Part shown: in pieces, positions 42,357 through 58,797 of the stretch
How the letters are laid out: each line of letters opens with the position of its first letter
Position numbering within the stretch: the stretch's first letter is position 1
Assembly: GCF_029626225.1 (NCBI RefSeq)
Contig: NZ_JARUBP010000001.1
Span: forward strand, 5,146,001-5,210,000
DNA length: 64,000 bases
Origin: Asanoa sp. WMMD1127
GTDB lineage: Bacteria > Actinomycetota > Actinomycetes > Mycobacteriales > Micromonosporaceae
Reading direction: 5' to 3'
Position numbers and translations under genes: made by a program
Notes under the pieces: generated by a model
Databases searched by the model: none
What the model was told of the DNA's origin: nothing
The model's input: the letters and a program-made list of their open reading frames with translations, nothing else

Positions 42357-43985
42357 TCAGCCTCGCATGGCGAGGTAGCGCCGGATCAGCTCCCGCGTCG
42401 AGGAGTCGTGCTGGGCGGACGGCTCGGCGGCCCCGGTCAGCTCTGGAATGATCTTCGCCGCGAGCACCTTGCCGAGCTCGACGCCCCACTGGTCGAAGGA
42501 GTCGATGCCCCAGATCGTGCCCTGGGTGAACACGCTGTGCTCGTAGAGCGCCACCAGCGCGCCCAGCACCCGCGGGGTGAGCCGCTCGGCCAGCAGCACG
42601 TTGCTCGGGCGGTTGCCCTCCATGACCCGATGGGCAACGACGTCGTCGGCGGTGCCTTCGGCCCGTACCTCCTCCTGGGTCCTGCCGAACGCCAACGCCT
42701 GCGCCTGCGCGAACACGTTGGAGGAGAGCAGGTCGTGGTGGTCGCGCAGCGGGTTGAGGGTCTGGCCGAAGCCGATCAGGTCGACGGGGATGAGCCGCGT
42801 GCCCTGGTGGAGCAGCTGGTAGAAGCTGTGCTGGCCGTTGGTGCCCGGTTCACCCCAGTAGACCGGGCCGGTGTCGTAGTCGACCGGACGGCCGTCGCGG
42901 GTGACGTGCTTGCCGTTGGACTCCATGGTGAGCTGTTGCAGATAGGCCGGAAAACGCTTCAGATACTGCTCGTACGGCATGACGCCGACACTCTGCACAT
43001 TGAAGAAGTTGACGTACCAGACGGTGAGCAGGCCCATCAGCGCCGGCAGGTTCCGGTCCAGCGGGGTGGTGCGGAAGTGCTCGTCCATCTCGTGGAAGCC
43101 CGCCAGCATCTCGGCGAAGCCCTGCGGACCGACGGCGACCATGGTGGACAGTCCGATGGCGGAGTCCATCGAGTAGCGGCCGCCGACCCAGTCCCAGAAC
43201 CCGAACATGTTGGCGGTGTCGATGCCGAACTCGGCGACCCGGTCCGCGTTGGTGGACACGGCGACGAAGTGCTTAGCCACCGCGGCCTCGTCGCCGAGCT
43301 GGCCGACCACCCAGTCGCGCGCCGAATGGGCGTTGGTCAGGGTCTCGAGCGTGCCGAACGTCTTGGAGGAGACGATGAACAGCGTCTCCTCGGCGCGCAG
43401 GTCCCTGGTGGCCTCGACGAAGTCGGTCGAGTCCACATTGGACACGAACCGGAACGTCAGATCCCGGCGGGTGTAGTGCCGCAGAGCCTCGTACGCCATG
43501 ACCGGTCCGAGGTCCGATCCGCCGATGCCGACGTTGACGATCGCCTTGATCGGCTTGCCGGTGTGCCCCAGCCACTGTCCTGAACGGATCCGGTCGGCGA
43601 AGGCGGCCATGCGGTCCAGCTCGCCGTGGACCTGGGCGACCACGTCCACGCCGTCGACGACCAGGGAGGCGCTCTTCGGCATCCGCAGGGCCACGTGCAA
43701 CACGGACCGGTGCTCCGAGGAGTTGATAGGCGCGCCGGAGAACATCAGGTCGCGGCGCTGTTCGAGCTCGCACTCGCGGGCGAGCTGAAACAGCAGCCGC
43801 AACGTCTCCTCGGTGATCCGGTTCTTGGAGTAGTCGAGGTAGAGCCCGGCCCCCTCGGCCGTCAACCGCTCACCCCGCGCGGGGTCGTCCGCGAACAGTT
43901 CTCGCAGGTGCCGGCCACCGAGGTCGGCGTGGTGCGCGGCGAGGGCCTGCCAGGCGGCGCGTTCGCGCAGCGGCATCGTCGACAT
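42357..43985 (-). CDS. pgi: Glucose-6-phosphate isomerase
   Basis: Interconverts glucose 6-phosphate and fructose 6-phosphate. 542 aa, normal length. Signatures include [20 protein letters not shown], the active-site glutamate region [12 protein letters not shown] and [20 protein letters not shown]. The last residues IRRYLAMRG are usual. It lies upstream of zwf on the same strand with a 91-bp gap, a common actinobacterial arrangement for glucose 6-phosphate flux. I see no damage in this gene. Confidence 0.96.
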
Positions 43986-44085: not shown

Positions 44086-44101
44086 TGAAGCGGTTATGAA
44101 G
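44086..44101 (+). promoter_or_regulatory. 11-bp TGAAG direct repeat (SARP-type operator) before secreted protein gene
   Basis: TGAAGCGGTTATGAAG: TGAAG at 44086 and 44097, exactly 11 bp apart. The second copy ends 57 nt before the TTG start at 44159. A -10-like TCTCAT begins 11 nt after the second copy. SARP regulators bind direct repeats with 11-bp pitch in the -35 region. The same unit and the same 57-nt gap recur at 45725 and 55572. Confidence 0.7.
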
Positions 44102-44158
44102 TCGAGACGTGCTCTCATTGGGCGGCCATCCGGTGTGGAGTGAAAGGGAACAGGCACC

Positions 44159-44575
44159 TTGAAGAGAGTTAGATGGGCAGCCATCGTCGGGCTGACGGCT
44201 GTGCTCCTGGTCAGCCTGACACCGGGAGCCGCCTTGGCGGACAGTAAGGAGATTCGCAATACGGGCAGGTACGCCATCGGTGCCGTCAAGGACTTCGACG
44301 GATACTTCGACCAGGGCAAATACGATGCTCTGATCCCGCCCGGGCGATTCTCGGGCTGGGCGAGCACCGCGGGCATCTGGATCGGGCCGAACTACTGCGT
44401 GCGCGTTCGCTACTGGCGTTCGGGGACGGAGGCCAACCCGCCCGGTCCGGCGCAGCTCACGGATCCCTCGATCGCTTACGGCGGCTCAAAGGGGAAGTAC
44501 CAGAGCCTCACTACTCATATCGGCGTCGATGTGCGCGCACTGCCGTACAGCGAACCCGACTGTTGGCGGCTCTGA
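44159..44575 (+). CDS. Small secreted protein A (paralogue of 45145)
   Basis: 138 aa from TTG 44159, after GAAAGGG. A Sec signal peptide (VGLTAVLLVSLTPGAALA) is followed by a mature part of about 110 residues. It shares long blocks with the product at 45145: IRNTGRYAIGAVKDFDG, YDALIPPGRFSGWAS, SGTEANPPGPAQL and the ending ALPYSEPDCW. Two cysteines in the mature part (YCVR and DCW) suggest one disulfide. I do not recognise a named family. Expression is likely under the TGAAG repeat upstream. Confidence 0.8.
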   Translation: MKRVRWAAIVGLTAVLLVSLTPGAALADSKEIRNTGRYAIGAVKDFDGYFDQGKYDALIPPGRFSGWASTAGIWIGPNYCVRVRYWRSGTEANPPGPAQLTDPSIAYGGSKGKYQSLTTHIGVDVRALPYSEPDCWRL

Positions 44576-44630
44576 GCCTTCGAGCCCCCTTGTGCGAGCA
44601 GCGTACGGCGCGGCAGAGGAGAAGTAGCCA

Positions 44631-45092
44631 ATGCGGAACCTTCGGACAGCTCAGATCCTGGCGTTCGCCGGCGCGGTCATCGCGCTGGCCACCGCCGCGC
44701 CTTCGCCGGCGCACGCGGCCACCACATTGGAGGTGAGGCCGGGGCTGAGTCCGTTCTATCCCAATGGCAAGAACGGCAGCGGACCCAGGGAGTACGTGAC
44801 CCGCAACCTGACCACGGAGTCTCGGAACCTGTACCTGCGCAACTGCCGGTCGGGTTACTCCTGCTATGCCGTGGGAGAGGGCGACGGCCAACACACGTTC
44901 TTCGAGCTCTACTACTGCGACAAGCGGAGCATCACCAACTTCCTGGGTCGCGGCGCCGCCGTCAACCACCAGACGGGCAGTGCGGTGGCGGAACTCCGCG
45001 ACCGGCACGGTTGGTTGGTCCAGTCGGTCAACGCGGACAACAAAGCGGTTTCGGTCGACTGGGATCCGATCTGGAGCATCGTTCCGTGTTGA
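44631..45092 (+). CDS. Small secreted cysteine-containing protein
   Basis: 153 aa with a Sec signal peptide ending near SPAHA-ATT. The mature part has five cysteines (NCRSGYSCYAV, YYCDK and the terminal VPC) and aromatic residues. It lacks the PPGRFSGWAS block of its two neighbours, so it is not their close paralogue. It lies 55 nt after the first secreted protein and 52 nt before the next, in the same direction. ATG at 44631 follows GGAGAAG. Function unknown. Confidence 0.78.
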   Translation: MRNLRTAQILAFAGAVIALATAAPSPAHAATTLEVRPGLSPFYPNGKNGSGPREYVTRNLTTESRNLYLRNCRSGYSCYAVGEGDGQHTFFELYYCDKRSITNFLGRGAAVNHQTGSAVAELRDRHGWLVQSVNADNKAVSVDWDPIWSIVPC

Positions 45093-45144
45093 TCCGCTGA
45101 CCGCGCCCGCGCCGTCTCCGACGCAGCTGAAAGGAAGAGTCGAA

Positions 45145-45567
45145 GTGAAGAAAATGAGATGGGCGACCACGTTTGCCCTGACCGCCGTACTTGTCATCGG
45201 TCTGACACCGGGATCCGCCTCAGCCGCCACCAAGGAGATGCGCAATACAGGCGACTATGCCATCGGTGCCATCCAGGTCTTCGACGGCACTTACGCTCAG
45301 GGCGGCGGCCGATACGACGCCCTGATTCCCCCTGGCCGATTCTCGGGCTGGGCCAGCACTGACGGAATCTACATTGGGCCCGGGTGGTGCGTGCGAAGGC
45401 GCTTCTGGCTGTCGGGAACCGAGGCTTCTCCTCCCGGTCCGGCGCAGCTCGGCGACCCGAAAATCCATTACGGCGGGGCAAACGGGTTGTGGGTCAGGTT
45501 CCATTCGGAGATAGGCGTCGACATAAAGGCACTCCCCTACAGCCATCCCGACTGCTGGAACGAGTAA
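45145..45567 (+). CDS. Small secreted protein B (paralogue of 44159)
   Basis: 140 aa. GTG at 45145 follows AAGGAAG. A Sec signal ends near GSASA-ATK. Mature part: MRNTGDYAIGAIQVFDG, YDALIPPGRFSGWAS, SGTEASPPGPAQL, EIGVDIKALPYSHPDCW. The order, length and cysteine placement (WCVR, DCW) equal those of the product at 44159, so the pair arose by duplication with the 153-aa gene lying between them. The open frame back to 44866 is a shadow of that gene. Confidence 0.82.
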   Translation: MKKMRWATTFALTAVLVIGLTPGSASAATKEMRNTGDYAIGAIQVFDGTYAQGGGRYDALIPPGRFSGWASTDGIYIGPGWCVRRRFWLSGTEASPPGPAQLGDPKIHYGGANGLWVRFHSEIGVDIKALPYSHPDCWNE

Positions 45568-45724
45568 CCGGATCGTTCCGACCTCGGCGCTGAAACCGTT
45601 TCTCGTACGTTGGAGACTGGTCAGGACGAGCCGTTCGGTGGTGATGGTCCTCGGTTCGAACGTGGTCACGTCGGTGACGAGGCTCTACAAGATCACCTAC
45701 GTGCCAGCATCGTGATCAGGTGGC

Positions 45725-45740
45725 TGAAGTAGATGTGAAG
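45725..45740 (+). promoter_or_regulatory. 11-bp TGAAG direct repeat before membrane protein gene
   Basis: TGAAGTAGATGTGAAG: copies at 45725 and 45736, 11 bp apart, both followed by GT. The second copy ends 57 nt before ATG 45798. A weak -10-like TTGGAT begins 11 nt after it. The spacing equals that before the secreted protein at 44159. Confidence 0.68.
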
Positions 45741-45797
45741 TCGGCAGCGGATTGGATGACGGAAAGTCGGCACGGGTACGCGAGGTAAGGAGCCGCT

Positions 45798-46370
45798 ATG
45801 GCGTCGGACGCGCTCGCCGCACCTGAGGAGGCGCCGTCGCGCCGGTGGGCGGTCCGCCATCGCTGGCCGACCGCGTTGGGTCTCGCGGCGGCTGCGACAC
45901 AACTCGCCTTCGGCCCGGATGCCGAGACGCTGGCGACCGTGATCGCCGTCGCGGTGTTGTGCTATCTGGGTGCCGCCGCCCTCGATCGCCGCTGGGTCGG
46001 CTGGGCCGGTTGCCTGGCCTTTCCCGCGGTGCTGGTAACCAGCCAGGTCGTCGGTGTGACGTGGTGGGTGGTCGGTTCGGCGGTCGCGGTCGTTCTGCTG
46101 GTCGTTGGTCTGGCGACTCGCGCTCCGCGGCCGCCGCTGACCGCCCAGAGCCTGGCGCTGCTCGGCTACGGCGTGGTCGCCGTGACGGCGCTGTTCCTGA
46201 GCCCACGGACGGGTCTCGTCGTCGCCGGGTTCGCGCTTGCGAGTCATGGAATCTGGGACGTCATCCACTATCGACGCAACCAGGTCGTCAACCGGTCTCT
46301 GGCCGAGTTCTGCATCGTGTTGGACGTGCCGCTGGGCGTGGCAGCCATTCTCGTAGCCCTGGCAGGCTGA
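45798..46370 (+). CDS. Six-helix membrane protein of unknown function
   Basis: 190 aa with about six hydrophobic spans after a polar 20-residue start. The motif LASHGIWDVIHYRRNQVVNRSLAE before the last helix is notable, with HGxWD and a basic loop. Start ATG 45798 after AAGGAG. It lies downstream of the secreted-protein cluster and has its own TGAAG repeat. I do not recognise a family name. Confidence 0.78.
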   Translation: MASDALAAPEEAPSRRWAVRHRWPTALGLAAAATQLAFGPDAETLATVIAVAVLCYLGAAALDRRWVGWAGCLAFPAVLVTSQVVGVTWWVVGSAVAVVLLVVGLATRAPRPPLTAQSLALLGYGVVAVTALFLSPRTGLVVAGFALASHGIWDVIHYRRNQVVNRSLAEFCIVLDVPLGVAAILVALAG

Positions 46371-46574
46371 TCGGGTGTGAGGCCGCACTCCACCTTCTTG
46401 ACGGTTGGTCGAACCGCCCGTCGCTGGCCGCTTCGCCCACGGTGGCGGCCGCTGGCTCATCCTTGCCGGTGTTGCGCTCGACGGTGTCGGCACCGCGACC
46501 GCCGGTGGCCGGAGCGATGGCGGTCAGGACGCTTGGCGGAGCTTTGGCTCGACGTGACCCATGTGCCCTTGTCC

Positions 46575-46590
46575 TGAAGCGTTGTTGAAG
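46575..46590 (+). promoter_or_regulatory. 11-bp TGAAG direct repeat, target unclear
   Basis: TGAAG at 46575 and 46586 in TGAAGCGTTGTTGAAG. No start codon with a ribosome site lies 57 nt beyond it, unlike the three best copies. The next plus-strand gene is SARP1, 381 nt downstream. Confidence 0.5.
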
Positions 46591-46750
46591 CGCGTGTCGG
46601 CGCTTCCCCACCACCGCGGGTGCAGAACGCACATCTGCGAGTGTGCGAAACCCACATCGATCCCGTGCTCGTCACACTGGTCGGCCGACGATCGCTCCTT
46701 CCACACTTGTGCCGTGTCAGCGACGTCCCGGCGCAGGACGTTCGAGAGCC

Positions 46751-46801
46751 CCCTGCGGCGCCGGCCCGCGAACGATCGGGTGGGGGACCGGCGCCGCAGG
46801 G
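46751..46801. repeat. Perfect 14-bp GC-rich inverted repeat upstream of SARP1
   Basis: CCCTGCGGCGCCGG (46751-46764) and CCGGCGCCGCAGGG (46788-46801) with a 23-nt loop that can itself pair partly (CCCG and CGGG). It is the strongest hairpin I found in the window. No T-run follows. It ends 170 nt before the SARP1 start. It may stop upstream transcription or fold in the SARP1 leader. Confidence 0.65.
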
Positions 46802-46971
46802 TAATCCCGAAAGGGCTCCATCATGCAGACAGCTGGCCGCCTGGCTGCGCATCGCGGTCAACCCGACCGCTCGGCGTGCGCTCGACCGCGTCCGCAGGCA
46901 GAGCCGAAGTGGCGCCGTGAAAGCCGGCCGGTGAATGCGGCGCGCCGGTCGTACGCCACGGGATGTGACTG

Positions 46972-49776
46972 ATGTCCGGCATCGACATTCGCGTTCTCGG
47001 CCCGCTGTCGGCGCTCAACGAGGGCCGGGAGGCGCACCTGACCTCGCGCCGCGTCCGGGCGTTCGTCGCCGCGCTGACGGTGAACGTCGGCCGTCCGGTG
47101 ACGGTGGCGGAGCTGGTCGACGCGGTTTGGGGTGACGCACAGCCGGAGAACCCTCGCCGGGCTCTCCAGCTCGCCGCCTGGCGCGCCCGTGCCATTCTCG
47201 GTCAGATCGACGCCGCAGAGATCATCGTCACCAGTCCCGATGGCTATCGGCTCGACCTGCCGATCGAGCGAACCGATCTCGGCCGGGTGCGGCGCTTCCT
47301 CCAGGACGCCGACCGTGCGGCCGAAGCGGGCGACCTCGAACGAGAGCTCACCGCTGTCAGCGGCGCCCTCGACCAGTGGCGCGCGGAACCACTGTTGGAC
47401 GTACCGTCCGACGTGCTGCAGCGGGAGGTCGCGCCGTGGTTGCGGGAGCAGCGGTTGCAGTTGGCCGAGCGGCGTGTCGACATCATGCTGCGGCTCGAAC
47501 GGTTCGCCGAGATCACCGATGAGCTGATGGTCCTGACCGCACAACATCCCCTGCGGGAGCGGTTGTGGGGTCAGCTGATGGACGCCCTGCGTCGCCGCGG
47601 TCGGCGCGTCGAGGCGTTGAACGCCTATCACACGCTGAGGCGCAACCTGGCCGACGAGCTCGGCATCGATCCGAGCGAGCCGATCCGGGCACTGCACACG
47701 GCGATTCTCACCAGCCAGCCCGTCGGCGCGCGCCGGCCGGCGCCGCTGCCGTCCGTTCCGCGCCAGTTGCCGCCGGACATCCGCGGCTTCACCGGCCGGC
47801 AGCGTGAGCTGTCGAAGCTCGACGAGCTGGCCGCCACGGTGGATACGACCTCCGGGCCCGTCGTCGTGGTGATCACCGGCACCGCCGGCGTCGGCAAGAG
47901 CACGCTGGCCACGCATTGGGCGCACCGCGTCGCCGACGACTTCCCCGACGGCCAGTTCTTCGTCGACCTGCGCGGCTATCACCCGGCCCAAGCGTTGACG
48001 CCGGCCCAGGCGCTGGCCCGTTTTCTGCACACCCTGGGCGTACGCGGTGACGACGTGCCCGCCGACGTCGAGGAACGGGCGGCGTTGTATCGGTCCTTGA
48101 TGGACGGACGTCGGGCGCTGGTGCTGATCGACAATGCCAACAGCGCGGCACAGCTTCGGCCGCTGCTCCCCGGCGCCGTGGGCTGCCTCGTCCTGGTTAC
48201 GAGCCGCGACCAACTGGTGAGCGTGGTCGCCAGCGACGGCGCCTGTCCAGTGCCACTCGATCTGCTCAGCGTCGGTGACGCCGGTCGGCTGCTCGCCGAG
48301 CGGCTCGGCCGTGAACGACTGGCCGCGGAGCCGGAGGCCGTGCGGCACATGATAGCCGCGAGCGCGCGGCTGCCGCTCGCGTTGGCGATCGTCGCCGCCC
48401 GGGCCGCGGTCCGCCCGGACGCCCCGCTCGGCAAGATCGCCGCGCGGCTTCGCGACGGTCTCGACGCCTTCGACACCGCCTCTCCGGCCACGGACGTGCG
48501 CGCCGTTTTCTCGTGGTCCTATCGTGAGCTCGACCCCGCCGCGGCCCGCCTGTTCCGGCTGCTGGGCCTGCACCCCGGTCCGGACCTGCCGACGGCGGCG
48601 GCGGCGAGCCTCGGCGGCCTGTCACCCGGCGCGGCGAAGCGCGTGCTGGGCGAGCTGGTGCGCGCCCACCTCGTGGTCGAGCACGAACCCGGTCGGTTCA
48701 GCCTGCACGACCTGCTCCGGGCCTACGCGGCCGAGCTGGCACACGCAGCGGAGCCCGAGGACGGGCGCTACCAGGCCGCCCGGCGACTGCTCGACCATTA
48801 CCTGCACACCGGCCACGGCGCCGCGACGATCCTCAACCCGCAACGCACCGAGCTGGTGCTGGGCCCGCCTCTACCGGGCGCGGTGCGCCACCACCTCGCC
48901 GGGTACGACGAGGCGATGGGCTGGTTCAACGCCGAACGCGAGACGATGCTGAGTCTGCTGCGCTGGTCAGCGACCACCGGACGCGACGTCGAGACGGGTC
49001 AGCTCGCCTGGGTCCTGGCCGGCTTCCTCGAGCGCCAGGGCTACTGGGACCAGTGGACACAGACCCAGCGCGCGGCCATCGCCGCCGCCGAGCGACTGGG
49101 TGACGGCGTGCTCGAGGCGCACGCGCACCGCGGGCTCGGCCGTGCGTACGCCCGCCGCGGGCAGGCCGTCGACGCTCACCACCATTACCGCCGTGCCCTG
49201 GAGCTCTACCGGCTCACCGGCCACCTCGGCGGTCAGGCCCGCACGGAGACGAACCTCGCGCTCCTGCATGAGCAGCATGGCCGCCACCGGGAGGCGCTCG
49301 CACACGCGCTGCGGGCGCTCGCCCTGCAGCAGCGTCTGGGCGACGACCCGGTCGGTCACGCCAACGCGCTCAACACCGTGGCGTGGTGCCATGCCCAGCT
49401 CGGCGAGTACGAGCCGGCGGTCCGCTACTGCCGGATGGCGATCGAGCGGCACGAGAAGATCAGCGATCTCGACGGTCAAGCGGCGACTCTCGACACGCTC
49501 GGATACGCCCTGCACCACCTGGGTCGATACGACGAAGCGGTCATCAGCTACCGGCGGGCCATCGACCTGTACGTTCAGTTGGGCGACAGCTACTACGCCT
49601 CGGTCAGCCTGGTGCACCTGGGCGAGACCTTCGAGGCGGTGGGCGACGTGGCCGTGGCCCACACGCAGTGGCGCCAGGCGGAGACCATCCTCGCTGAGCT
49701 CGACCATCCCGCCTTGGAGCAGGTGCGCCGGAAACTGGCCGGCGCGGCCACCGTCAATCCGGCGATGACGCGCTGA
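46972..49776 (+). CDS. Large AfsR-type SARP regulator 1 (BTAD, NB-ARC, TPR)
   Basis: 934 aa. A winged-helix DNA-binding domain (residues about 1-95) is followed by the bacterial transcriptional activator domain (to about 250; HPLRERLWGQLMDALRRRGR is typical). A STAND NTPase has P-loop TGTAGVGKSTLA near 302 and Walker B-like ALVLIDNA. C-terminal TPR repeats run from about 690 to 910 (NLALLHEQHGRHREAL, LGYALHHLGRYDEAVISY). It should bind 11-bp direct repeats and recruit RNA polymerase once the NTPase/TPR part receives a signal. ATG 46972 is inside GTGACTGATGTCC with no strong ribosome site. Confidence 0.92.
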   Translation: MSGIDIRVLGPLSALNEGREAHLTSRRVRAFVAALTVNVGRPVTVAELVDAVWGDAQPENPRRALQLAAWRARAILGQIDAAEIIVTSPDGYRLDLPIERTDLGRVRRFLQDADRAAEAGDLERELTAVSGALDQWRAEPLLDVPSDVLQREVAPWLREQRLQLAERRVDIMLRLERFAEITDELMVLTAQHPLRERLWGQLMDALRRRGRRVEALNAYHTLRRNLADELGIDPSEPIRALHTAILTSQPVGARRPAPLPSVPRQLPPDIRGFTGRQRELSKLDELAATVDTTSGPVVVVITGTAGVGKSTLATHWAHRVADDFPDGQFFVDLRGYHPAQALTPAQALARFLHTLGVRGDDVPADVEERAALYRSLMDGRRALVLIDNANSAAQLRPLLPGAVGCLVLVTSRDQLVSVVASDGACPVPLDLLSVGDAGRLLAERLGRERLAAEPEAVRHMIAASARLPLALAIVAARAAVRPDAPLGKIAARLRDGLDAFDTASPATDVRAVFSWSYRELDPAAARLFRLLGLHPGPDLPTAAAASLGGLSPGAAKRVLGELVRAHLVVEHEPGRFSLHDLLRAYAAELAHAAEPEDGRYQAARRLLDHYLHTGHGAATILNPQRTELVLGPPLPGAVRHHLAGYDEAMGWFNAERETMLSLLRWSATTGRDVETGQLAWVLAGFLERQGYWDQWTQTQRAAIAAAERLGDGVLEAHAHRGLGRAYARRGQAVDAHHHYRRALELYRLTGHLGGQARTETNLALLHEQHGRHREALAHALRALALQQRLGDDPVGHANALNTVAWCHAQLGEYEPAVRYCRMAIERHEKISDLDGQAATLDTLGYALHHLGRYDEAVISYRRAIDLYVQLGDSYYASVSLVHLGETFEAVGDVAVAHTQWRQAETILAELDHPALEQVRRKLAGAATVNPAMTR

Positions 49777-49787
49777 GCCGGGGCGCC

Positions 49788-49938
49788 GATGGTCTGGTCG
49801 CCGTGCTGGGTCTCGAGGATGACATCGAGGTGGTCGCCGAGGTCGCGACCGGGAATTGGGTAAGGACGCGCCGTGACCAGGCTCGATGCGCGTAACCGCG
49901 TGGACGCCATCCACATCGCTCGTCGCGCGGGCTGGCTC
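49788..49938 (+). pseudogene. Response-regulator relic: first and last pieces only
   Basis: Plus strand: VLGLEDDIEVVAEVATG matches the start of a DesR-like receiver domain. About 15 nt on, in another frame, LDARNRVDAIHIARRAGWL matches the last 20 residues of the LuxR-type output domain of the same family. Some 150 residues in between, including the phosphorylated aspartate and most of the DNA-binding domain, are gone. It is a deletion relic of one response regulator. It lies 12 nt after SARP1, and 49939-50174 shows nothing else. Confidence 0.72.
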
Positions 49939-50174
49939 CGAGCCGCAGTGATGGCCGGCCAGCAGCGACCGCAGGCGATGGCGCTGCTGGCCGACGGACC
50001 ATGGACTTCGGAGTATGAGCGGGCGGGCGCGCCCGCAGGTCATCAGTACTCGCGGTCGCGCATCGCCGCACCTCCTCCCGTATGCCGACGGTCCAACGCT
50101 CGACCCGCCGGCAACGTATCCGGCACCGATTTCAAAACGACTTCGGTCAAGATCGGCGCCTGACCTCGACGATG

Positions 50175-51452
50175 TCACGTCACGACGCCGTGGTCGGCCG
50201 GGAAGGCGCGCAGACGGGGGATCGGCGACAACAGGATCGGGATGATGGCAAGGGCATATCCGACTGCGCCCAGCCACAGCGTTGCTCTCAGGCCAATCAT
50301 TTCCCCGAGTACGCCGCCGGCGAGGGCGCCGAGCGGAAGGGCGCCGAAGACGAGCGTGCGGACACTCGCGTTCATTCGGCCCCGCAGGTGCTCGGGCGTC
50401 AACGCCTGCCGCAGACTGGCGTTGATCACGTTGGTGTTGGCCAGGCTCGCCTGCCAGACGAAGAAGCTCAGCATGCAGATCCCGACCACCACGGGCGTGG
50501 GACCAACGGCGAGCGGCAGGAGCAGCGTGCCGCCGGCGCCCACGGCGCGGGCGGTGACATAGAGGCGGCCCAGCGGAAAGCGCCGGCAGAGCCAGTTGGC
50601 GAACGCCGCACCGAGCACCCCGCCCGCGCCGATGGCCGACAGCGTCAGGCCCAGGAGAGCCGGCGTCAGGTTCAACTGGCGCAGGGAGTACACCAGGAAG
50701 ACGGTCTCGGTGAGGTTCGCGAAGAGGTTGCCAAGGGCGGCGGCGTACGCGGTGGCGCGGATATGTGGCTCGGTGAAGGCGAACCGCAAGCCTTCGACAA
50801 GCTCGCGCCTGACCGTGCGCCGCCGTGCGGGCGGGACCCGATGCGGCTCCGGCGCCCGCACCAGGATCAAAGCGACCGTCGCCACGAGATAGGTGACCGC
50901 GTCCACGATGAGGGCGATGGGCGCGGTCACCAGCTGCACCAGCAGACCGCCGGCGCCGGGCCCGGCGACCTCGGCGGCGGCGTGGCTGGCGGAGACCTTG
51001 CTCATCGCATCCACGAGGTGGTCGCGGTGCACCAGGTCGGGAACGTAGGACAACCAGCAGACCTCGAACATGGCAGCGCAGGTGCCCACCGCGAATGCGA
51101 TCACGACGAGCAGCGGAAGTCGCATCAGCCCCAGAGCCGTGCACAGTGGAACGATCGCCAGCAGCGCGCAGCGGGCCGCGTTGGAGACGATCATCAGGGT
51201 GCGGCGGCGGAGGCGGTCGGCCACCACGCCGAATGCCAGCGTGAACACAAGGAACGGCAGGTACTCCGCGAATCGCAGCAGGCCCAGCTCGGCGGTGCTG
51301 ACGTCCAGGGCGACCATCGCCAGGAGCGGCAGCGCGACGAAGGTCACCTGACTGCCGACGAGCGACACGGACTCGCCGAACCAGAAGGTGATGAAGGCGC
51401 GGTTGTGCCACAACGACGAGGGCGGGATGTGGCCCCCGGTCAGTGACCGCAA
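50175..51452 (-). CDS. MFS transporter
   Basis: 425 aa with about 12 spans. The motif A region is FGVVADRLRRRTLMIV. The N-terminus WHNRAFITFWFGESVSLVG is typical of the enterobactin-exporter/macrolide-efflux type of MFS. Start 51452, 17 nt downstream of the SARP2 stop on the same strand, so SARP2 and this gene probably form an operon. It may export a molecule that the SARP network produces or senses. Substrate unknown. Confidence 0.88.
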   Translation of the reverse strand: MRSLTGGHIPPSSLWHNRAFITFWFGESVSLVGSQVTFVALPLLAMVALDVSTAELGLLRFAEYLPFLVFTLAFGVVADRLRRRTLMIVSNAARCALLAIVPLCTALGLMRLPLLVVIAFAVGTCAAMFEVCWLSYVPDLVHRDHLVDAMSKVSASHAAAEVAGPGAGGLLVQLVTAPIALIVDAVTYLVATVALILVRAPEPHRVPPARRRTVRRELVEGLRFAFTEPHIRATAYAAALGNLFANLTETVFLVYSLRQLNLTPALLGLTLSAIGAGGVLGAAFANWLCRRFPLGRLYVTARAVGAGGTLLLPLAVGPTPVVVGICMLSFFVWQASLANTNVINASLRQALTPEHLRGRMNASVRTLVFGALPLGALAGGVLGEMIGLRATLWLGAVGYALAIIPILLSPIPRLRAFPADHGVVT

Positions 51453-51469
51453 CGGACGTACCCCACCGA

Positions 51470-54265
51470 TCAGAGCCGCACGGGCTGGGCGATCTCGTCG
51501 AGGATGGTGACGGCCGCGCGCCAGGATGCTTGCGCGGCCGCGGGTTGACCGGCTTCGTAGTGTGTGTCGCCGATGCGCCGAAGGGTGCCGGCCGCGCCTT
51601 CCCTGTGCCCGACCGCCGTGCGGATCTCCAGCGCCCGCTGGTATGCCGCCAGGGCGTCGCGATGGTCACCCAGGCGATGGCGGATGAAGCCCAGGCTGTC
51701 CCACGTCGCGGCCTCGGAGATCTGGTCCTTCGCCTCGACCGCGAGGGCAACGGCTCGCTCGCAGGTGGCCAAGGCCTCATGCAGCTTGCCAAGCTGTGCG
51801 AGGCACCAGCCGGCCGAGTTGAGCAGCCGGCCGAGGCTCGACCTCGGACCGTTCGGCGGGAACAGTTCCAGAGCCCGCTGCGCGTGTGCCAGGGCGGCGT
51901 CGTGATCGCCCTGTCGCTCGAGCGTCGTCGAGAGGTTCTCGTGGGTGTGGACCTGGCCCATCCGTTCGTCGCTGTCCCGGTAGAGCGTCAACGCGTCGCG
52001 CAGGTGTGCGTGGGCAGAGACGTAGTCGTCCAGGTGGGCGTACGCCAGTCCCAGACAGCGGTGAGCGCGGGCCTGTTCGATGCGGTCACCGAGCCGCGTC
52101 GCAGCGGCCAGAGCGGTGCGCAGCGTCGCCGCCCGGTCTGGCCAACGGCCCTGCCACTGCAGGTAGTTCTCCAAGGACCACGCCAGCTGCCAGACGTGGC
52201 GGTCGAACCGGCCGACCCACGCCGACGTGACCGCCGCCAACAGCGCTGACCGCTCCACGTCGAACCACGCGAGGGACTCTTCGCGGCTCTTGAAACGCTC
52301 GGCCGTGACGGTGGGATCAAGCGGTGGAAGGGGGATCGGATCGCGAAGCGGTTCGATCAGAAGGGCCGAGTGCGCGGCCGAGCTGAGATAGTGGTCGAGG
52401 ACGCGGCGCTGGGCGGCCTGCCGCTCCTCCTCGGTGTCGTGCCGGTGCAAGAGCTCTCCGGCGTAGGTCCGGAGCAGATCGTGACAGCTGTAGCGACCCG
52501 GAAGGTGCTCCTGGAGCAGGTGGGCTCGGCGAAGCTCCGTGAGCGACTGCCGCACCTGGGGTACGGGCACGCCGCTGAGGCTGGCCGCCGCGTGCACACC
52601 GGTGCTCGGCAGAATGCTCAGCAGCCTGAACAGTCGTTTGGCCGGCGTGCTGAGCCGTCCGTAGGACCAGGAGAAGACTCCGCGGATGTCGGTCGCCGCG
52701 TCCGGGCTGGCGAGTGCGTCAAGGCTGGTGTGGAACTGTCCTAGCTCCTCGGCGAGCGCGGGCAGGCTCAGGCGACGGAGACCGTTGGCCCGGGCCGCCG
52801 TGATCGCGAGGGCGAGCGGTAGCCCAGCGCAGATGTCGACGATTCGCCCCGCCACCTCGGGGTCGGCTTCGACGACGTCGGCCCCCAGCCGCGAGGCCAG
52901 CAGCTCCGTCGACTCGGCCGCGGACAGCACGTCCAGGGTGACCGGTTCGGCGCCCGCGGCCACCAGCTCGGGCATCTGCTGGCGACTGGTGACCACGGCG
53001 GCACTGTGCGGCGCGCCCGGAAGCAGCGGACGCACCTGCTCGGCGTCGAGGGCGTTGTCCAGCACGATGAGCACTCGCTTGCCGGCCAGCAGGCTGCGGA
53101 ACAGACCCACCTGGGCGGCGAGGTCGGTGGGCACGTAAGCCGGAACGATGCCGAAGGCTTCGAGGAACCCGCGGATCGCGGTCTCGGCCCGGACAGCCTG
53201 GCCATCGGGGGCGAACCCGCGAAGATCGACGTAGAGCTGCCCGTCGGGAAACCGTGGCGAGATCTCGTGTGCCCAGTGGACGGTCAGCGTCGTCTTCCCG
53301 ACTCCCGCGCCCCCGGTCACGATCGCGACCGGGGCCTCGTCGTCGAGCCGATCCAGCGCATGGTGGAGCTGAGCCAGGCTTGTCGACCGCCCCGCCAGCC
53401 GGCCGACCCGGGCGGGCAGCTGCCGCGGAACAGGCACGTGCCCGGACGTTGTCGCCGGTGGCAGTGGCGCCTGCTCGCCGGCGAGCATCCGTTGATGGAG
53501 CTCCTGGATCGCGGCGCTCGGGGCGATACCCAGCTCGTCGGCGAGCAGGCGGTAGAGCCGTTGGTAGACGGACAGCGCCTCAGCCTGCTGACCGCACCGG
53601 TAAAGGGCGATCATCAGCTGCCCCCACGGCCGTTCGCGCAGCGGGTGCCGGTTCACCAGCTGGCGTAGGTCCTCGACGACGGCGCTGTCCAGGCCGGCGG
53701 CGAGGTCGAGGTCGATGCGTCGTTCCATCGCGGCTAGGTAGCGGTCGATCAGCCTGGGGCCCTCGATCTGCTCCAACCACGAGGCGTGCAGGCCTTCGAA
53801 CGGGTTGCCCCGCCAGAGGGCGAGCGCTTCGCCGAGCAGGACCCGCTCCTTGGCTGGTTCGGCCGCGGCGGCCGCGTCATCGAGGAGGTCGGTGAACCGC
53901 AGCGCGTCGACGTCGTGGGCCTTGAGGACGTAGCCGTCCGGTTCGGTGTCGATCGCGCGGCCACCCAACAGGCCGCGCAGCCGCGTGACGTACAGCTGCA
54001 CGCTGCGGCGGCCGTCGCCCGGAAGCTCCTCGCCCCAGATCCGGGCGGCCAGGCGTTCGGGCGCGACGGCACGTCCGTGGCTCATCGCCATGACCGCCAC
54101 CAGCGCTCTCAGCCGACCGGTCTTGACGGTCACCGGTCGACCGTCGACCCGGACCTTCAGCGAGCCCAGCACGCCTACGTGCAGTCCGCCCCCGCCGGGG
54201 CGGCTGGGGGCGTCCTGGTGTGCACCACGCCACTCTGCGATGCGCATCGCAATCCCCGTATCCAT
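51470..54265 (-). CDS. Large AfsR-type SARP regulator 2 (BTAD, NB-ARC, TPR)
   Basis: 931 aa with the same layout as SARP1. The winged helix with LGSLKVRVDGRPVTVKTGRL starts near residue 33. The activator domain contains HPLRERPWGQLMIALYRCGQ. The P-loop is TGGAGVGKTTLT near 318 and C-terminal TPR motifs include LGLAYAHLDDYVSAHAHL. The start ATG 54265 leaves an extra 30-residue head. A GTG or ATG nearer the domain is also possible. The upstream space holds a TGAAG array on its coding strand, which would fit control by itself or a sister SARP. Confidence 0.92.
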   Translation of the reverse strand: MDTGIAMRIAEWRGAHQDAPSRPGGGGLHVGVLGSLKVRVDGRPVTVKTGRLRALVAVMAMSHGRAVAPERLAARIWGEELPGDGRRSVQLYVTRLRGLLGGRAIDTEPDGYVLKAHDVDALRFTDLLDDAAAAAEPAKERVLLGEALALWRGNPFEGLHASWLEQIEGPRLIDRYLAAMERRIDLDLAAGLDSAVVEDLRQLVNRHPLRERPWGQLMIALYRCGQQAEALSVYQRLYRLLADELGIAPSAAIQELHQRMLAGEQAPLPPATTSGHVPVPRQLPARVGRLAGRSTSLAQLHHALDRLDDEAPVAIVTGGAGVGKTTLTVHWAHEISPRFPDGQLYVDLRGFAPDGQAVRAETAIRGFLEAFGIVPAYVPTDLAAQVGLFRSLLAGKRVLIVLDNALDAEQVRPLLPGAPHSAAVVTSRQQMPELVAAGAEPVTLDVLSAAESTELLASRLGADVVEADPEVAGRIVDICAGLPLALAITAARANGLRRLSLPALAEELGQFHTSLDALASPDAATDIRGVFSWSYGRLSTPAKRLFRLLSILPSTGVHAAASLSGVPVPQVRQSLTELRRAHLLQEHLPGRYSCHDLLRTYAGELLHRHDTEEERQAAQRRVLDHYLSSAAHSALLIEPLRDPIPLPPLDPTVTAERFKSREESLAWFDVERSALLAAVTSAWVGRFDRHVWQLAWSLENYLQWQGRWPDRAATLRTALAAATRLGDRIEQARAHRCLGLAYAHLDDYVSAHAHLRDALTLYRDSDERMGQVHTHENLSTTLERQGDHDAALAHAQRALELFPPNGPRSSLGRLLNSAGWCLAQLGKLHEALATCERAVALAVEAKDQISEAATWDSLGFIRHRLGDHRDALAAYQRALEIRTAVGHREGAAGTLRRIGDTHYEAGQPAAAQASWRAAVTILDEIAQPVRL

Positions 54266-54354
54266 CGTGGCCGCGCAGCGCCGAGTCCTGACACCATCGC
54301 TCGAACGAGCCTGTGCGGCCGAACTGAACCGCCCAAGACCGAATCACAGACCCC

Positions 54355-54381
54355 CTTCATTTCCGTTTCGCGGCTGCTTCA
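54355..54381 (-). promoter_or_regulatory. Three-unit 11-bp repeat upstream of SARP2
   Basis: On the minus strand, TGAAG occurs at 54381-54377 and at 54359-54355, 22 bp apart, with a degenerate unit (CGAAA) exactly midway. TTC on the plus strand therefore falls at 54356, 54367 and 54378, an 11-bp pitch. The last unit ends 89 nt before the SARP2 ATG. This is less regular than the copies at 44086, 45725 and 55572. Confidence 0.5.
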
Positions 54382-54425
54382 GCATCGGGCGACGGGGCTC
54401 GCGCACCGCTCGCAGGCGAGGCTCG

Positions 54426-55514
54426 TCACCTACGACCGTTCAGCGAGTCGAGGAAACGCCGTTCGAACGCGGTGGCGTCGGCCCCCAGCGCCGCCCGGAT
54501 CCGTGCGCCACCTGGGGTGACGACGGTGCGCCCACACTGCACGCCGTCCTGCACGACCGCGACGTCGGCGCGCTCGAACCTCGCTACGGCCCCGTCGTCG
54601 TGCACGGCGGACACCGCGGCCAGCGCGTCCCACCAGTACATGATGCCCAGGTCGATCAGGGCCGCCAGGTCAGGATGGGTCAGGATCCGGTAGGTGAGCG
54701 CAGCGCCCGGTCTCACCTGGTCGGCAGCCAGCCGTGCGACGAAGGAGTCGGTGATCGGCGCCGCCGCGGTCGCGTCCAGCGGGACCAGGTGGACGCTTCC
54801 CGGCCGAGCCCGACGGAAGACCTCGCTCGCCGCTGCCGGATCGAGCCACATGTTGAACTCCTGGGAGTTGTCGAACCCAGGCAGTGCCGAGCCGTAGAGG
54901 TTGCCCGGCACGTGGAGAGCCCCGCCCATGATCTGGATCCGCTCGATCCGGGCGGCCACACCGGGTACCCGCAGCGCCGCCGCGAGGTTCGTCAGCGGGC
55001 CCGTGGCCACCACCGTGACCGGCCGCCGGGCCGCGGTGACCGTTCGCACGAGGAGGTCGCGGGCACTCAGCGGCGCCTGGTGCGGCGGGCGGTCCCCGTC
55101 GCCGAGCGCGTCACGCAGGACGGTCTCGATGGTGGCGACCAGCTCGGCGGGCGCGGGGTTGCGGCCCTCGCCGGTCGCGCCCTCGGCCACCGGAACCGAC
55201 GGCAGCCCACACTCCTCCAGGATGGTCACGGCATGCCGCGACGTCCGTCCCGGCTGGCCGAAGCCGTTGTTGGCGACCGTGACGGCCCGCAGGTCGATGC
55301 GGCCGAGCTTGTGCTCCTCGCACAGGTAGGCCAGCGTCGACGCGTCGTCGAAGTCCAGATCGCTGTCGTAGATCACCGGGGTCGCCCGGCGTTTCTCGAC
55401 GGCCCACGACGGCGCGGCGCCGCCCACGGCGGAGGTGACGGCGGCGGCCGCGACCGTGGCGATCGCCTCCCGCCGTGACAGACGCATGGGGGGCCGCTCG
55501 ACCCGACGACGCAT
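54426..55514 (-). CDS. Tat-exported inosine-uridine nucleoside hydrolase-like protein
   Basis: 362 aa. A twin-arginine signal (RLSRREAIATVAAAAVTSAV) suggests folded export. The calcium and active-site segment DSDLDFDDASTLAYL (residues about 40-54) replaces the family's DTDPGxDDA, and NNGFGQPGRTS and VVATGPLTNLAAAL follow. Members cleave N-glycosidic bonds of nucleosides. The altered first motif could change specificity. ATG at 55514 follows GGAGG. The 55730 start runs through the repeat and is not a signal. It is 57 nt downstream of a TGAAG repeat. Confidence 0.86.
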   Translation of the reverse strand: MRRRVERPPMRLSRREAIATVAAAAVTSAVGGAAPSWAVEKRRATPVIYDSDLDFDDASTLAYLCEEHKLGRIDLRAVTVANNGFGQPGRTSRHAVTILEECGLPSVPVAEGATGEGRNPAPAELVATIETVLRDALGDGDRPPHQAPLSARDLLVRTVTAARRPVTVVATGPLTNLAAALRVPGVAARIERIQIMGGALHVPGNLYGSALPGFDNSQEFNMWLDPAAASEVFRRARPGSVHLVPLDATAAAPITDSFVARLAADQVRPGAALTYRILTHPDLAALIDLGIMYWWDALAAVSAVHDDGAVARFERADVAVVQDGVQCGRTVVTPGGARIRAALGADATAFERRFLDSLNGRR

Positions 55515-55571
55515 TTCTCGACCTCCGCACGACCGGGGGATGCGATGCGACGGGAGCCTATGCCTGGCAGG

Positions 55572-55587
55572 CTTCATCGCGGCTTCA
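55572..55587 (-). promoter_or_regulatory. 11-bp TGAAG direct repeat before the nucleoside hydrolase gene
   Basis: On the minus strand, TGAAGCCGCGATGAAG: copies at 55587-55583 and 55576-55572, 11 bp apart. Exactly 57 nt separate the last copy from ATG 55514. A good -10, TAGGCT, begins 11 nt after it. Same geometry as at 44086 and 45725. Confidence 0.72.
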
Positions 55588-55624
55588 TCGGGGCGCGCGC
55601 CGACCACGGTCGGCGGCGTGCCGA

Positions 55625-58471
55625 CTAGAGCCGTTCGGTCAGGTGGATCCGAATGGCCTCGGCCGTCACTTCGCCCTCCTCGGTCGTGCTGGCGTCGATG
55701 CCCGCGAGAAGGTCCAGCGCGCGTTGCCAATGTCGGCGGGCCGGCGCCGATCGGCCGATGCCCAAGCTGGCTTTCGCCAAGGCGTCATGGGCGCGCGCCT
55801 GGTCGGCGTGGTGGCTCAGCTCGCCGGCGATGCGAAGGGCCGACTGGTGATACTCGACGGATCGCCCGGGCTGGCCCGTTGCCCGGTACAGCAGGCCGAG
55901 GCCGTGGGCGGACTCCATCTGCCAGTTGCGGTCGCCCAGGCTTTCGGCGGACGTGGCCGCCCGTCGGTAGTGCGTTTCCGCCGACCGGTGGTCGCCCAGG
56001 AGTCGGAACGCGTCACCGAGGCCGGAGACGGCGTTGAGCCCGGGCGAGCTCGCACCGATGCTCTGCCCGAGGCGGTCCGCCCGCGCGAAGGTGCTCAACG
56101 CGGTCCGGAACCGTCGTCGCAGCAGGAGCGTTCGGCCGAGACCGGTCAGAGCGTCCAGCTTGTCGAGTGGTCGCTGGGTCAGCTCGGCGAGCGCGAGCGC
56201 CGCGTGGTAGTGGCCGGTCGCCGACTCGAGTCGGGACAGCTTCCGCTCGACATGGCCCAATCTCGTCAGGGCGGCCAGCTCGCCGGCGCGATCGCCGATC
56301 TCGCGGGCCAACCGCAGGGCCCTGGTCAGGATGTCCACGGCATCCGTCGCACGGTCCTGGCGGCGGAACAAGGCGCCGAGCCCCAGCATCGCGGTCAGTT
56401 GGGCCGGCTGATCGCGCAGTTCCCGGGCTACGGCCAGCGCGCGACTGTGCAGCAGCTGCGCGTCCGCGTACCTGTTGCGTGTCTCCAGGTGTCGGGCCAG
56501 CAGGTCGGACAGCAGCAGCAGGTGGTCGGGCCGGCAGTTGTCGGCCGCGTAGTGACCGGTCGCCAACAGGTTGGACAGCTCGGCATCCAGCCAACGCCGC
56601 GCCACCTCGTTGTTCGGAAACTGGCTGTCGCGACCCTGTCGCCGGGACACGACGCTCGTCGCCGCCGCGGCGGTCAGCCCGTAGTGGTCGAGAAGCCGGT
56701 CGATGGACGCCGCTCGATCGGCCTGGGACGCGTGCCCGAGCGCGGCGGCGTGCCGGCGGACGAGCTCCCGGAAGCGGTAGCGACCGGAGTGCGGCTCGTC
56801 CATCAGGTGCGCGTCCAGCAGATCTTCGATGACGCGGGTGGTGGCGGTGCTCGACATACCCGTCAGGGCGGCCGCCGCCGCGGCGTCGAAATCCGCTCCG
56901 GGGTGCAGACCCAGCAGCCGGTACGCTGTCCGGCTGCGCTCGACGAGGTTCCGGTAGGAGCCGTCCAACGCCGTGGCGATGCCGCTCGTGGGTTCGACCT
57001 CGAGTGCGGCGACACGCCGCTCCTCGAGGTCCAGCCGAGCGGAAAGGTCAGCGGGCGTCCAGGCCGGGTGCGTTCGCAGCCGGGCGGCGGCGTCGAGCAG
57101 CACGAGCGGAAGCCCGCCGCACATCCGGACCAGGCGGATGAGGTCGCGGCTGGGACTGGCGGCCAGTCGTCGCCGGCCCACCGCCCGGCGCAGCAGGGCC
57201 AGCCCGTCGCCGGCCGGCAACACGGGCACGTCGATGCGGTGTGCGGAGCTCAAGGACCCCAGCCGGCGGCGGCTGGTGACGATGACGCGGCTCTCCGGGG
57301 TGCCGGGCAACAGGGGCACGACCTGGTCCTCGCCCGCCGCGTCGTCGAGTACCAGCAAGATTCGCCGGCCGGCGACGCAGGTGCGGAACAGGGCGGACTT
57401 CTCGGCCAGGTCCGGCGGAATCTCGCCGTGCTCGACGCCGAGCGCCCGCAACATCCCGTCGAGCGCTCGCGCCGGCTCGACAGCCTCCTGGCCTGCGCTG
57501 TGGCCGTGCAGGTCGACGAAGAGTTGGCCGTCCGGGAACCGGGAGCTGACCTGGTGCGCGACGTGCAACGCCAGTGCCGTCTTGCCCACGCCGGCCATGC
57601 CGTTGACGACCGTCACGGCCGGCCCGACGTCGCTGTCGATACCCGCGAGGTCCGCCGCCTCCGGGCGACGTCCGGTGAAGAACGCCGCCGCGGCCGGCAA
57701 CTGATGTGGGGTGTGGAACGGCTTCGGCGGCGGGGGGTTGCCGGGGATCGCGCCGGACAGCAGATCGGCGTAGATCGTCTTCAGCTCGGCGCCAGGATCG
57801 GTGCCCAGCTCCTCGGCCAGGTGGCTGCGCACCGCTTCGTAGGCGGCCAGCGCGTCCGCGGGCCGGCCGCTGCGGGCCAGGGCGACGAGCAGCCGTGCCC
57901 AGAGAGTCTCGTGCAGGGGGTGGAGCCGGGTCAGCTTCCTTAGATCGGCGACGAGTCCTTCGTGACGGCCCTCAGCGAGATCCAGATCCGCCTTCCTGAC
58001 GACGGCCGCCAGGTAGCGCTCCACCAGCGCGGGCGCCTCGACCGCACTGAGCCAGCTGGAGCCGAGGTCTTCGAACGGTGCGCCCCGCCAAAGTCCGAGC
58101 GCCTCGGTCAGGAGCGCACGCCTGCGCTCCGCATGGTCCGCACTGTCTGCCGCGTCCACCAACTGGCCGAAGCGCAGGGCGTCCACCGCGGACGGCGTGA
58201 TCCGCAGGCGGTAGCCACTCGGCTCGGTGTCGATGCGGTCGCCGCCCAACGCGTTACGCAGCCGTGTCACGTACGTCTGGATGCTCCGTCGCGGGTTCTC
58301 CGGTTGCTCGTCTGCCCAGAGGGCCGTCGCGAGGGTTTCCAACGTCACCGGCCGGGCGGGGGACAACGCCAGCAGCGTGAGCAGCACGCGGAGCCGGCCG
58401 GCCGTGAGGTCCAGGTCCCGACCGTCCAGGGAGACACGTAGCGGGCCGAGGAGATCGATCGCCAGTGGCAC
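55625..58471 (-). CDS. Large AfsR-type SARP regulator 3 (BTAD, NB-ARC, TPR)
   Basis: 948 aa. The DNA-binding domain opens at once (MPLAIDLLGPLRVSLDG) and reaches the activator domain HPLHETLWARLLVALARSGR. The P-loop is GMAGVGKTALALH near 290, and TPR repeats fill the last 330 residues (LGALFRRQDRATDAVDILTR, LGRTLLLRRRFRTALSTF). GTG at 58471 is the first start. It differs from SARP1 and SARP2 in the linker and NTPase text, so the three are paralogues of some age, not recent copies. Confidence 0.92.
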   Translation of the reverse strand: MPLAIDLLGPLRVSLDGRDLDLTAGRLRVLLTLLALSPARPVTLETLATALWADEQPENPRRSIQTYVTRLRNALGGDRIDTEPSGYRLRITPSAVDALRFGQLVDAADSADHAERRRALLTEALGLWRGAPFEDLGSSWLSAVEAPALVERYLAAVVRKADLDLAEGRHEGLVADLRKLTRLHPLHETLWARLLVALARSGRPADALAAYEAVRSHLAEELGTDPGAELKTIYADLLSGAIPGNPPPPKPFHTPHQLPAAAAFFTGRRPEAADLAGIDSDVGPAVTVVNGMAGVGKTALALHVAHQVSSRFPDGQLFVDLHGHSAGQEAVEPARALDGMLRALGVEHGEIPPDLAEKSALFRTCVAGRRILLVLDDAAGEDQVVPLLPGTPESRVIVTSRRRLGSLSSAHRIDVPVLPAGDGLALLRRAVGRRRLAASPSRDLIRLVRMCGGLPLVLLDAAARLRTHPAWTPADLSARLDLEERRVAALEVEPTSGIATALDGSYRNLVERSRTAYRLLGLHPGADFDAAAAAALTGMSSTATTRVIEDLLDAHLMDEPHSGRYRFRELVRRHAAALGHASQADRAASIDRLLDHYGLTAAAATSVVSRRQGRDSQFPNNEVARRWLDAELSNLLATGHYAADNCRPDHLLLLSDLLARHLETRNRYADAQLLHSRALAVARELRDQPAQLTAMLGLGALFRRQDRATDAVDILTRALRLAREIGDRAGELAALTRLGHVERKLSRLESATGHYHAALALAELTQRPLDKLDALTGLGRTLLLRRRFRTALSTFARADRLGQSIGASSPGLNAVSGLGDAFRLLGDHRSAETHYRRAATSAESLGDRNWQMESAHGLGLLYRATGQPGRSVEYHQSALRIAGELSHHADQARAHDALAKASLGIGRSAPARRHWQRALDLLAGIDASTTEEGEVTAEAIRIHLTERL

Positions 58472-58672
58472 ACAGCAAGCCTAGGACCAGTTTGGTCCAG
58501 ATACCTCGCCGACCAGGCTGACCTCGTTCGTCGGGCGCCGGGACGACGCTTACGGCCGACGACGAAGACGTCGTCCTGCGGGTCGCCAATGACGGCGCCT
58601 CGTCACCCCGTCCCACGGCGCCGACCGAGGGCTATCGCTCGGGACGACCGGTCGCCACCGCGGGCTAGACGG

Positions 58673-58699
58673 CTTCACGACGGCTTCACGACGGCTTCA
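58673..58699 (-). promoter_or_regulatory. Triple 11-bp TGAAG repeat upstream of SARP3
   Basis: Three near-identical 11-bp units GACGGCTTCAC on the plus strand at 58668, 58679 and 58690 (the last ends AT). TGAAG on the minus strand is therefore at 58699, 58688 and 58677. This is the longest and cleanest array. It is 201 nt upstream of the SARP3 start and 98 nt upstream of the divergent membrane gene at 58798. The rest of the 326-bp gap has a TATATT at 58748-58753 and nothing else I can name. Confidence 0.68.
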
Positions 58700-58797
58700 T
58701 CGGGAAGATCGGGCTGTCAGGCCGGCGGAAGGCGCCGATCTCGTACGTATATTCGGCAATGCGGTCTTGACTGATCGATGTGAGACAGGAGAGCGAC

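Follow-up and report, generated by a model that had tools for sequence, protein, structure and literature searches.

TGAAG repeats with an 11-bp period as candidate SARP operators in a compact locus of Asanoa sp. WMMD1127

A 64,000-nt stretch of the 7.97-Mb genome of Asanoa sp. WMMD1127 (the window; G000:C1:5146001-5210000) carries a compact set of TGAAG direct repeats with an 11-bp period, considered here as candidate operators of Streptomyces antibiotic regulatory proteins (SARPs). The locus begins behind a phosphoglucose isomerase gene (42357-43985), which is followed by three small genes, a membrane protein gene, SARP1, SARP2, a nucleoside hydrolase gene and SARP3 (Table 1). A sequence-only reading of the window had described two TGAAG copies 11 bp apart on the coding strand of three genes (44159, 45798 and 55514) and the hexamers TCTCAT, TTGGAT and TAGGCT starting 11 nt after the last copy; both observations are borne out by the coordinates. 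Three more boxes precede SARP1, SARP2 and SARP3. In all six boxes, TGAAG is on the strand of the gene behind. The T....T hexamer, which resembles a -10 element, follows after 11 nt in four of the six; the exceptions are the boxes at 46575 and 58673.

Table 1. Genes and TGAAG boxes of the locus (window coordinates; G numbers are genome labels)
Feature	Position	Strand	Remarks
TGAAG pair 44086-44101 and -10-like TCTCAT 44113-44118	44086..44118	+	before the 44159 exported-protein gene
Small protein, signal-peptide-like start, 138 aa	44159..44575	+	start TTG; homologue with TGAAG box upstream in G051
Second small protein, signal-peptide-like start	44631..45092	+	
Paralogue of the 44159 protein	45145..45567	+	start GTG
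TGAAG pair 45725-45740 and -10-like TTGGAT 45752-45757	45725..45757	+	before the 45798 membrane-protein gene
Membrane protein (by eye), 190 aa	45798..46370	+	start ATG; homologues with TGAAG box upstream in G111, G060, G103
TGAAG pair	46575..46590	+	381 nt before SARP1; no hexamer after 11 nt
SARP1, large SARP (winged helix, BTAD, NB-ARC, TPR)	46972..49776	+	
SARP2, large SARP	51470..54265	-	
Imperfect triple TGAAG-N6-CGAAA-N6-TGAAG 54355-54381 and -10-like TTCGGT 54338-54343	54338..54381	-	89 nt before SARP2
Nucleoside hydrolase (PF01156)	54426..55514	-	start ATG at 55514
TGAAG pair 55572-55587 and -10-like TAGGCT 55555-55560	55555..55587	-	before the nucleoside hydrolase
SARP3, large SARP	55625..58471	-	
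Perfect TGAAG triple	58673..58699	-	201 nt before SARP3; no T....T 11 nt past the last copy

A genome-wide count, proposed with the sequence-only reading, found six exact TGAAG-N6-TGAAG pairs, all within 44086-58699 (14.6 kb; the perfect triple at 58673 counts as two pairs), against two for the reversed pattern as a control. With one mismatch allowed, 81 matches compare to 79 in the control, which is background; the signal is therefore the cluster of exact pairs. As the choice of motif followed from reading the window, all five-mers were scanned across it (512 strand-merged five-mers with 16 gaps, giving 8192 combinations). TGAAG-N6 was the strongest gapped repeat with a log10 p of -15.9; the next combination reached -7.4 and the best in 20 dinucleotide shuffles -5.7. 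Several further matches were not counted as support. Pattern plus hexamer gave nine matches in the own genome (control: four), six of them with a single mismatch and five of these outside the locus. The five other genomes of the genus contain 14 exact pairs, four of them beside SARP genes. Two of the four (loci L021 and L022 in G001 and G005) include a 16-mer of the 55572 box, yet read as GCGATGA repeats; they lack T....T after 11 nt and their SARP has another recognition helix.

The gap of exactly 57 nt between the last TGAAG copy and the start codon, the third regularity of the sequence-only reading, is present at TTG 44159, ATG 45798 and ATG 55514. It did not hold as a rule, being found at three of the six boxes, with 89, 201 and 381 nt at the others. 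Automatically chosen starts in relatives lie 54-71 nt behind the box in 17 of 37 cases, which makes 57 nt typical of leaders; no other single value is as frequent (4/37) in a full range of 15-194 nt. As a fixed functional spacing it was rejected, since gaps vary in relatives. Taken alone, the shared gap at three genes is weak evidence, and together with a motif chosen after the window was read it would be compatible with chance or post-hoc selection. The genome-wide count, the scan of 8192 combinations with its shuffles and the recurrence with the hexamer in other genera contradict this explanation, which is hardly conceivable. The identical gap could also stem from one duplicated promoter segment, in which case the three genes would share an origin and not a regulator. 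Their box-to-start sequences are unlike each other (by eye), and in other genera box and hexamer persist in relatives and the gap does not; a duplication is very improbable.

The position of the hexamer was examined in relatives. The strict pattern, a TGAAG pair-N11-T....T, occurred 72 times in 51 of 300 genomes of the family (Micromonosporaceae), and the reversed pattern 20 times in 20 genomes. A hexamer-independent set was drawn from 13 genomes sampled in genera g31 and g32, where only A or T was required at one further position. It comprised 37 sites (reversed control: 9), or 33 after five copies of one orthologous site were collapsed. [TC]....T stands at offset 11 in 21 of the 33, compared to a mean of 2.9 over the other 18 offsets (binomial p ~1e-14); the T-first class is inflated because g31 and g32 were picked for their richness in strict sites (10 of the 13 genomes have one). 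The unselected C-first class also peaks at offset 11, with nine sites against a mean of 2.2 (by subtraction). Column counts suggest a longer unit, TGAAGCCG, which ends 8 bp before the -10. In an excerpt of PMC4393881, the SARP rule is given as a 3' repeat located 8 bp upstream of the -10. The putative unit, followed by 8 bp and [TC]....T, is this published geometry. Both traits of SARP operators were found, namely direct repeats with an 11-bp period and a 3' repeat 8 bp upstream of the -10, the latter at 21 of 33 sites in relatives and at four of six boxes here.

The genes behind the box were inspected at 40 loci, with 42 of the 72 strict sites between them. In three genomes of other genera (G111, G060 and G103), the gene directly behind the box encodes a homologue of the 45798 membrane protein (identity 32-34%, E 1e-16 to 1e-21); in a fourth, G051, it encodes one of the 44159 protein (54%, E 4e-35), and this gene was also found independently by protein search. 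Other boxes precede SARPs (L211, L230), reductase-like genes in G111, G060 and G079 (by eye) and genes for small proteins whose starts are signal-peptide-like. By a simple signal-peptide rule, exported or membrane-type starts lie behind 15 of 42 sites (34 with a frame), against none of 20 controls (12 with a frame), whose loci had shorter flanks; an overlapping second site set had 7 of 31. A conserved variant, TGAAGGSCAGATGAAGA, stands 55-56 nt before a response-regulator-like gene in L236 and L242 (G020, G158), with similar sites in G149, G140 and G224. It perhaps belongs to a different regulon.

SARP2 itself has orthologues in G005 (73% by profile match), G111 (64%) and G060 (61-64%, two frames). 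All four SARP2 upstream regions, own included, contain (T/C)GAAA-N6-TGAAG with TTCGGT, TTTGGT, TTACGT or TTACCT 11 nt further on, and the start lies 89 nt past the box in both the own genome and G005. No other pair at up to one mismatch was present in the 20-kb surroundings of the G111 and G060 orthologues (L150, L151). Just behind the G005 orthologue (L023), a pair faces a convergent gene (by eye). G003 has a decayed SARP1-like SARP near a pair, with TAATTT after 11 nt, and a membrane-protein-like frame.

The 11-bp period was compared among SARPs of the genus, where six genomes have 31-55 SARP2 matches each, some without the DNA-binding part. The test covered 71 SARP genes in 57 merged stretches, each gene oriented. 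Triples with a score of at least 15 and period 11 lie upstream of 12 of the 71 (1.1 expected), whereas every other period from 7 to 22 gave 0-3. The 12 cases include orthologous or shared intergenic regions and reduce to eight independent motifs, this locus among them. Their words vary among SARPs (CGTCCT, CCCGAT, CGTACA, TTGACG and others). A single triple, CGTCCT/AGGACG, lies between two divergent SARP genes and is shared by them; it is conserved in two species (L076 in G001 and L112 in G003). For 21 other SARPs with a triple (score at least 14; mostly 20-kb stretches), the word was absent beyond the own promoter region in 19; of the remaining two, one word had one extra pair and the GC-rich AGCGCG six. 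Among the SARPs compared, only this locus has its word at several unrelated promoters. A stretch of another genus, L222 (G065), has exact TGAAG pairs at 10033, 7641 and 1872 (-), within 8.2 kb around a SARP and one with the hexamer, perhaps a second local cluster.

SARP1, SARP2 and SARP3 have the domains of the large AfsR/SARP family: an OmpR-type winged helix (Trans_reg_C), BTAD, then NB-ARC and TPR. The Trans_reg_C scores are 21.6, 24.1 and 32.7 bits, and SARP3 alone exceeds the cut-off of 26.2. All three matched AfsR and EmbR in the PDB; with 519, 477 and 435 bits, they fall short of the NCBIfam AfsR equivalog cut-off of 1430. SARP2 and SARP3 have a common recognition helix (RRSVQLYVTRLRGLLG, RRSIQTYVTRLRNALG) and a common wing, IDTEPxGYxL. 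R92 of AfsR, which contacts bases according to an excerpt of PMC10936776, aligns to an arginine in all three proteins, and T88 to a threonine in SARP3 and a leucine in SARP1 and SARP2 (by eye).

A profile of 12 DNA-binding domains, including two genomes without sites (G082, G043), was used to define the SARP2/SARP3 subclass. At E <=1.1e-33 it found 20 of the 300 genomes. Strict sites occur in 12 of these 20 and in 39 of the 280 others (p 7.7e-6), and without the own genus in 10 of 18 against 38 of 276 (p 8.8e-5), both values being uncorrected for the kinship of genomes. Of 69 strict sites outside the own genome, five have a domain with E <=1e-28 no more than 10 kb away (G129, G053, G127, G065, G077), where by our estimate about 0.3 would be expected by chance. 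Around one best member per genome (L263-L282; 1.5-kb flanks), a box, either exact or with one mismatch and the hexamer, was found for 8 of 20: G060, G111, G000 and G005 (SARP2 orthologues), G129, G035, G277 and G053. The G277 and G053 boxes are on the opposite strand, and the G277 box lacks the hexamer. The next ten members (L283-L292) had no box within the fetched flanks. In G129, a box, a small exported protein and the subclass SARP follow each other within 0.8 kb.

A single regulator encoded elsewhere could instead bind the boxes, with the local SARPs as its targets; candidates are a SARP of the AfsR type and a response regulator of the OmpR type, for example PhoP. Such a regulator would explain boxes before SARPs with unlike recognition helices, targets in other genomes that are mostly far from SARPs, and the two of 40 boxes that precede response-regulator genes (L236, L242; by eye). 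In addition, some boxes read on the reverse strand as CTTCATCG, which is similar to the AfsR repeat CGTT(T/C)ATCG; according to an excerpt of PMC10972967, PhoP recognises this AfsR repeat too. However, exact sites confined to 14.6 kb are hardly expected of a global regulator, the SARPs of the genus have different 11-bp words of their own, and the box is associated with a SARP DNA-binding subclass. This explanation is considered unlikely, and the binder is most likely SARP2 and/or SARP3.

Judged by sequence, the TGAAG boxes are a real, conserved class of putative SARP-type operators, which forms an unusually compact set in this genome. What the sequence-only reading saw as a local SARP regulon is retained in its operators, by clustering, -10 spacing, conservation and subclass association, and loses its fixed gap. 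The boxes likely act as operators of the subclass of SARP2 and SARP3, which would activate exported and membrane proteins, the nucleoside hydrolase and the SARPs themselves. Two SARP winged-helix domains would bind as neighbours to two TGAAGCCG-like repeats spaced by one helical turn. Placed over the -35 region, 8 bp upstream of the -10, the pair would recruit RNA polymerase to the promoters of the small exported proteins, the membrane protein and the nucleoside hydrolase. SARP2, and probably SARP3 and SARP1, would feed back on themselves, because their own genes carry the box. The NB-ARC and TPR parts presumably gate activity on a signal.

Several observations weigh against the subclass of SARP2 and SARP3 as the acting regulators. 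The recognition helix of SARP1 differs (RRALQLAAWRARAILG), and boxes before SARPs with other helices (L211, L230) imply that SARPs may be targets. A SARP lies within ~10 kb in only 9 of the 40 loci, so the regulon would be mostly dispersed elsewhere. The 12 profile rows were selected after the site-bearing genomes were known, the scores have no sharp boundary, and strict sites are missing from 8 of the 20 subclass genomes and present in 39 genomes beyond the cut. At a score of at least 14, period 11 is not special among genus SARPs (22 of 71, compared to 23 for period 9 and 17 for period 12). In some boxes the reverse strand is like the AfsR repeat, so the bound protein may have the opposite orientation. 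The SARP1 and SARP3 boxes do not match the promoter geometry, and SARP3 may be driven by its own leaderless promoter under another regulator: TAGGCT lies 6 nt before its GTG, with the palindrome GGACCAAACTGGTCC just upstream (region 58478-58498; by eye). Between the 46575 box and SARP1, a perfect 14-bp inverted repeat, CCCTGCGGCGCCGG / CCGGCGCCGCAGGG (46751-46764 and 46788-46801; by eye), could act in a long SARP1 leader as terminator or attenuator.

PHO boxes and GlnR operators are GTTCACC or GTnAC/GAAAC repeats at genes across the genome. The TGAAG core is unlike these repeats (by eye), and its exact pairs are confined to one locus. Closer is OtcR, a small SARP, at the oxytetracycline promoters of S. 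rimosus. Its 9-nt repeat CGGTCGAAG also ends in GAAG and recurs at 11 bp, and OtcR differs as a SARP inside an antibiotic cluster (excerpt of PMC4393881). The PimR operator at pimM of S. natalensis consists of three heptamers set apart by 4-bp spacers; no fewer than two heptamers are needed, and the heptamer CGGCAAG ends in AAG. PimR is a SARP-LAL protein, its operator does not overlap the -35, and it has no target but pimM (excerpt of PMC5930380). AfsR and the afs box before afsS in Streptomyces coelicolor, as described in excerpts of PMC10936776 and PMC10972967, match in the large SARP with winged helix, BTAD, NOD and TPR and in two 11-bp direct repeats that overlap the -35. If the 5-nt core of the afs box is set on GTTCA, 11 nt remain to the -10 by our own count, as in the TGAAG boxes. 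The repeat differs, CGTT(T/C)ATCGNN compared to TGAAGCCGNNN here, and possibly the orientation is opposite. A limited literature search found no published report of a TGAAG box (TGAAG in an actinomycete paper was a primer), and none on SARP repeats in Micromonospora or SARPs in Asanoa.

All three small genes have signal-peptide-like starts. The 44159 protein has no Pfam or NCBIfam match and is 65% identical to its paralogue at 45145; its AlphaFold model was uninformative (two sequences, mean pLDDT 37). The gene at 44631 is possibly on the same transcript as the 44159 gene. No families of polyketide synthases or non-ribosomal peptide synthetases were found among 29 open reading frames scanned, and no systematic search of the window for biosynthetic clusters was made. 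Divergent to SARP3 is the frame at 58780-59457 (+), whose homologue in G119 (L217; 72% identity) lies ~1.5 kb from a strict TGAAG site. No box at up to two mismatches was present in the 300 nt preceding this homologue.

SARPs are standard activators of actinomycete antibiotic clusters. To our knowledge, most of the SARP-like matches in each genome of the genus have no known operator. The locus offers a candidate operator with conserved -10 spacing together with a candidate cognate DNA-binding subclass. Its targets, small exported and membrane proteins and a nucleoside hydrolase, suggest a role of SARPs outside antibiotic synthesis. Tentatively, private 11-bp-repeat words of SARPs at their own promoters in these SARP-rich genomes may let the codes of dozens of uncharacterised SARPs be read from sequence, and here one code may have spread to unrelated neighbouring promoters, forming an island of three mutually controlling SARPs and exported proteins apart from antibiotic synthesis. 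If this SARP-by-SARP repeat signature is true, operators would be predictable for many silent regulators.

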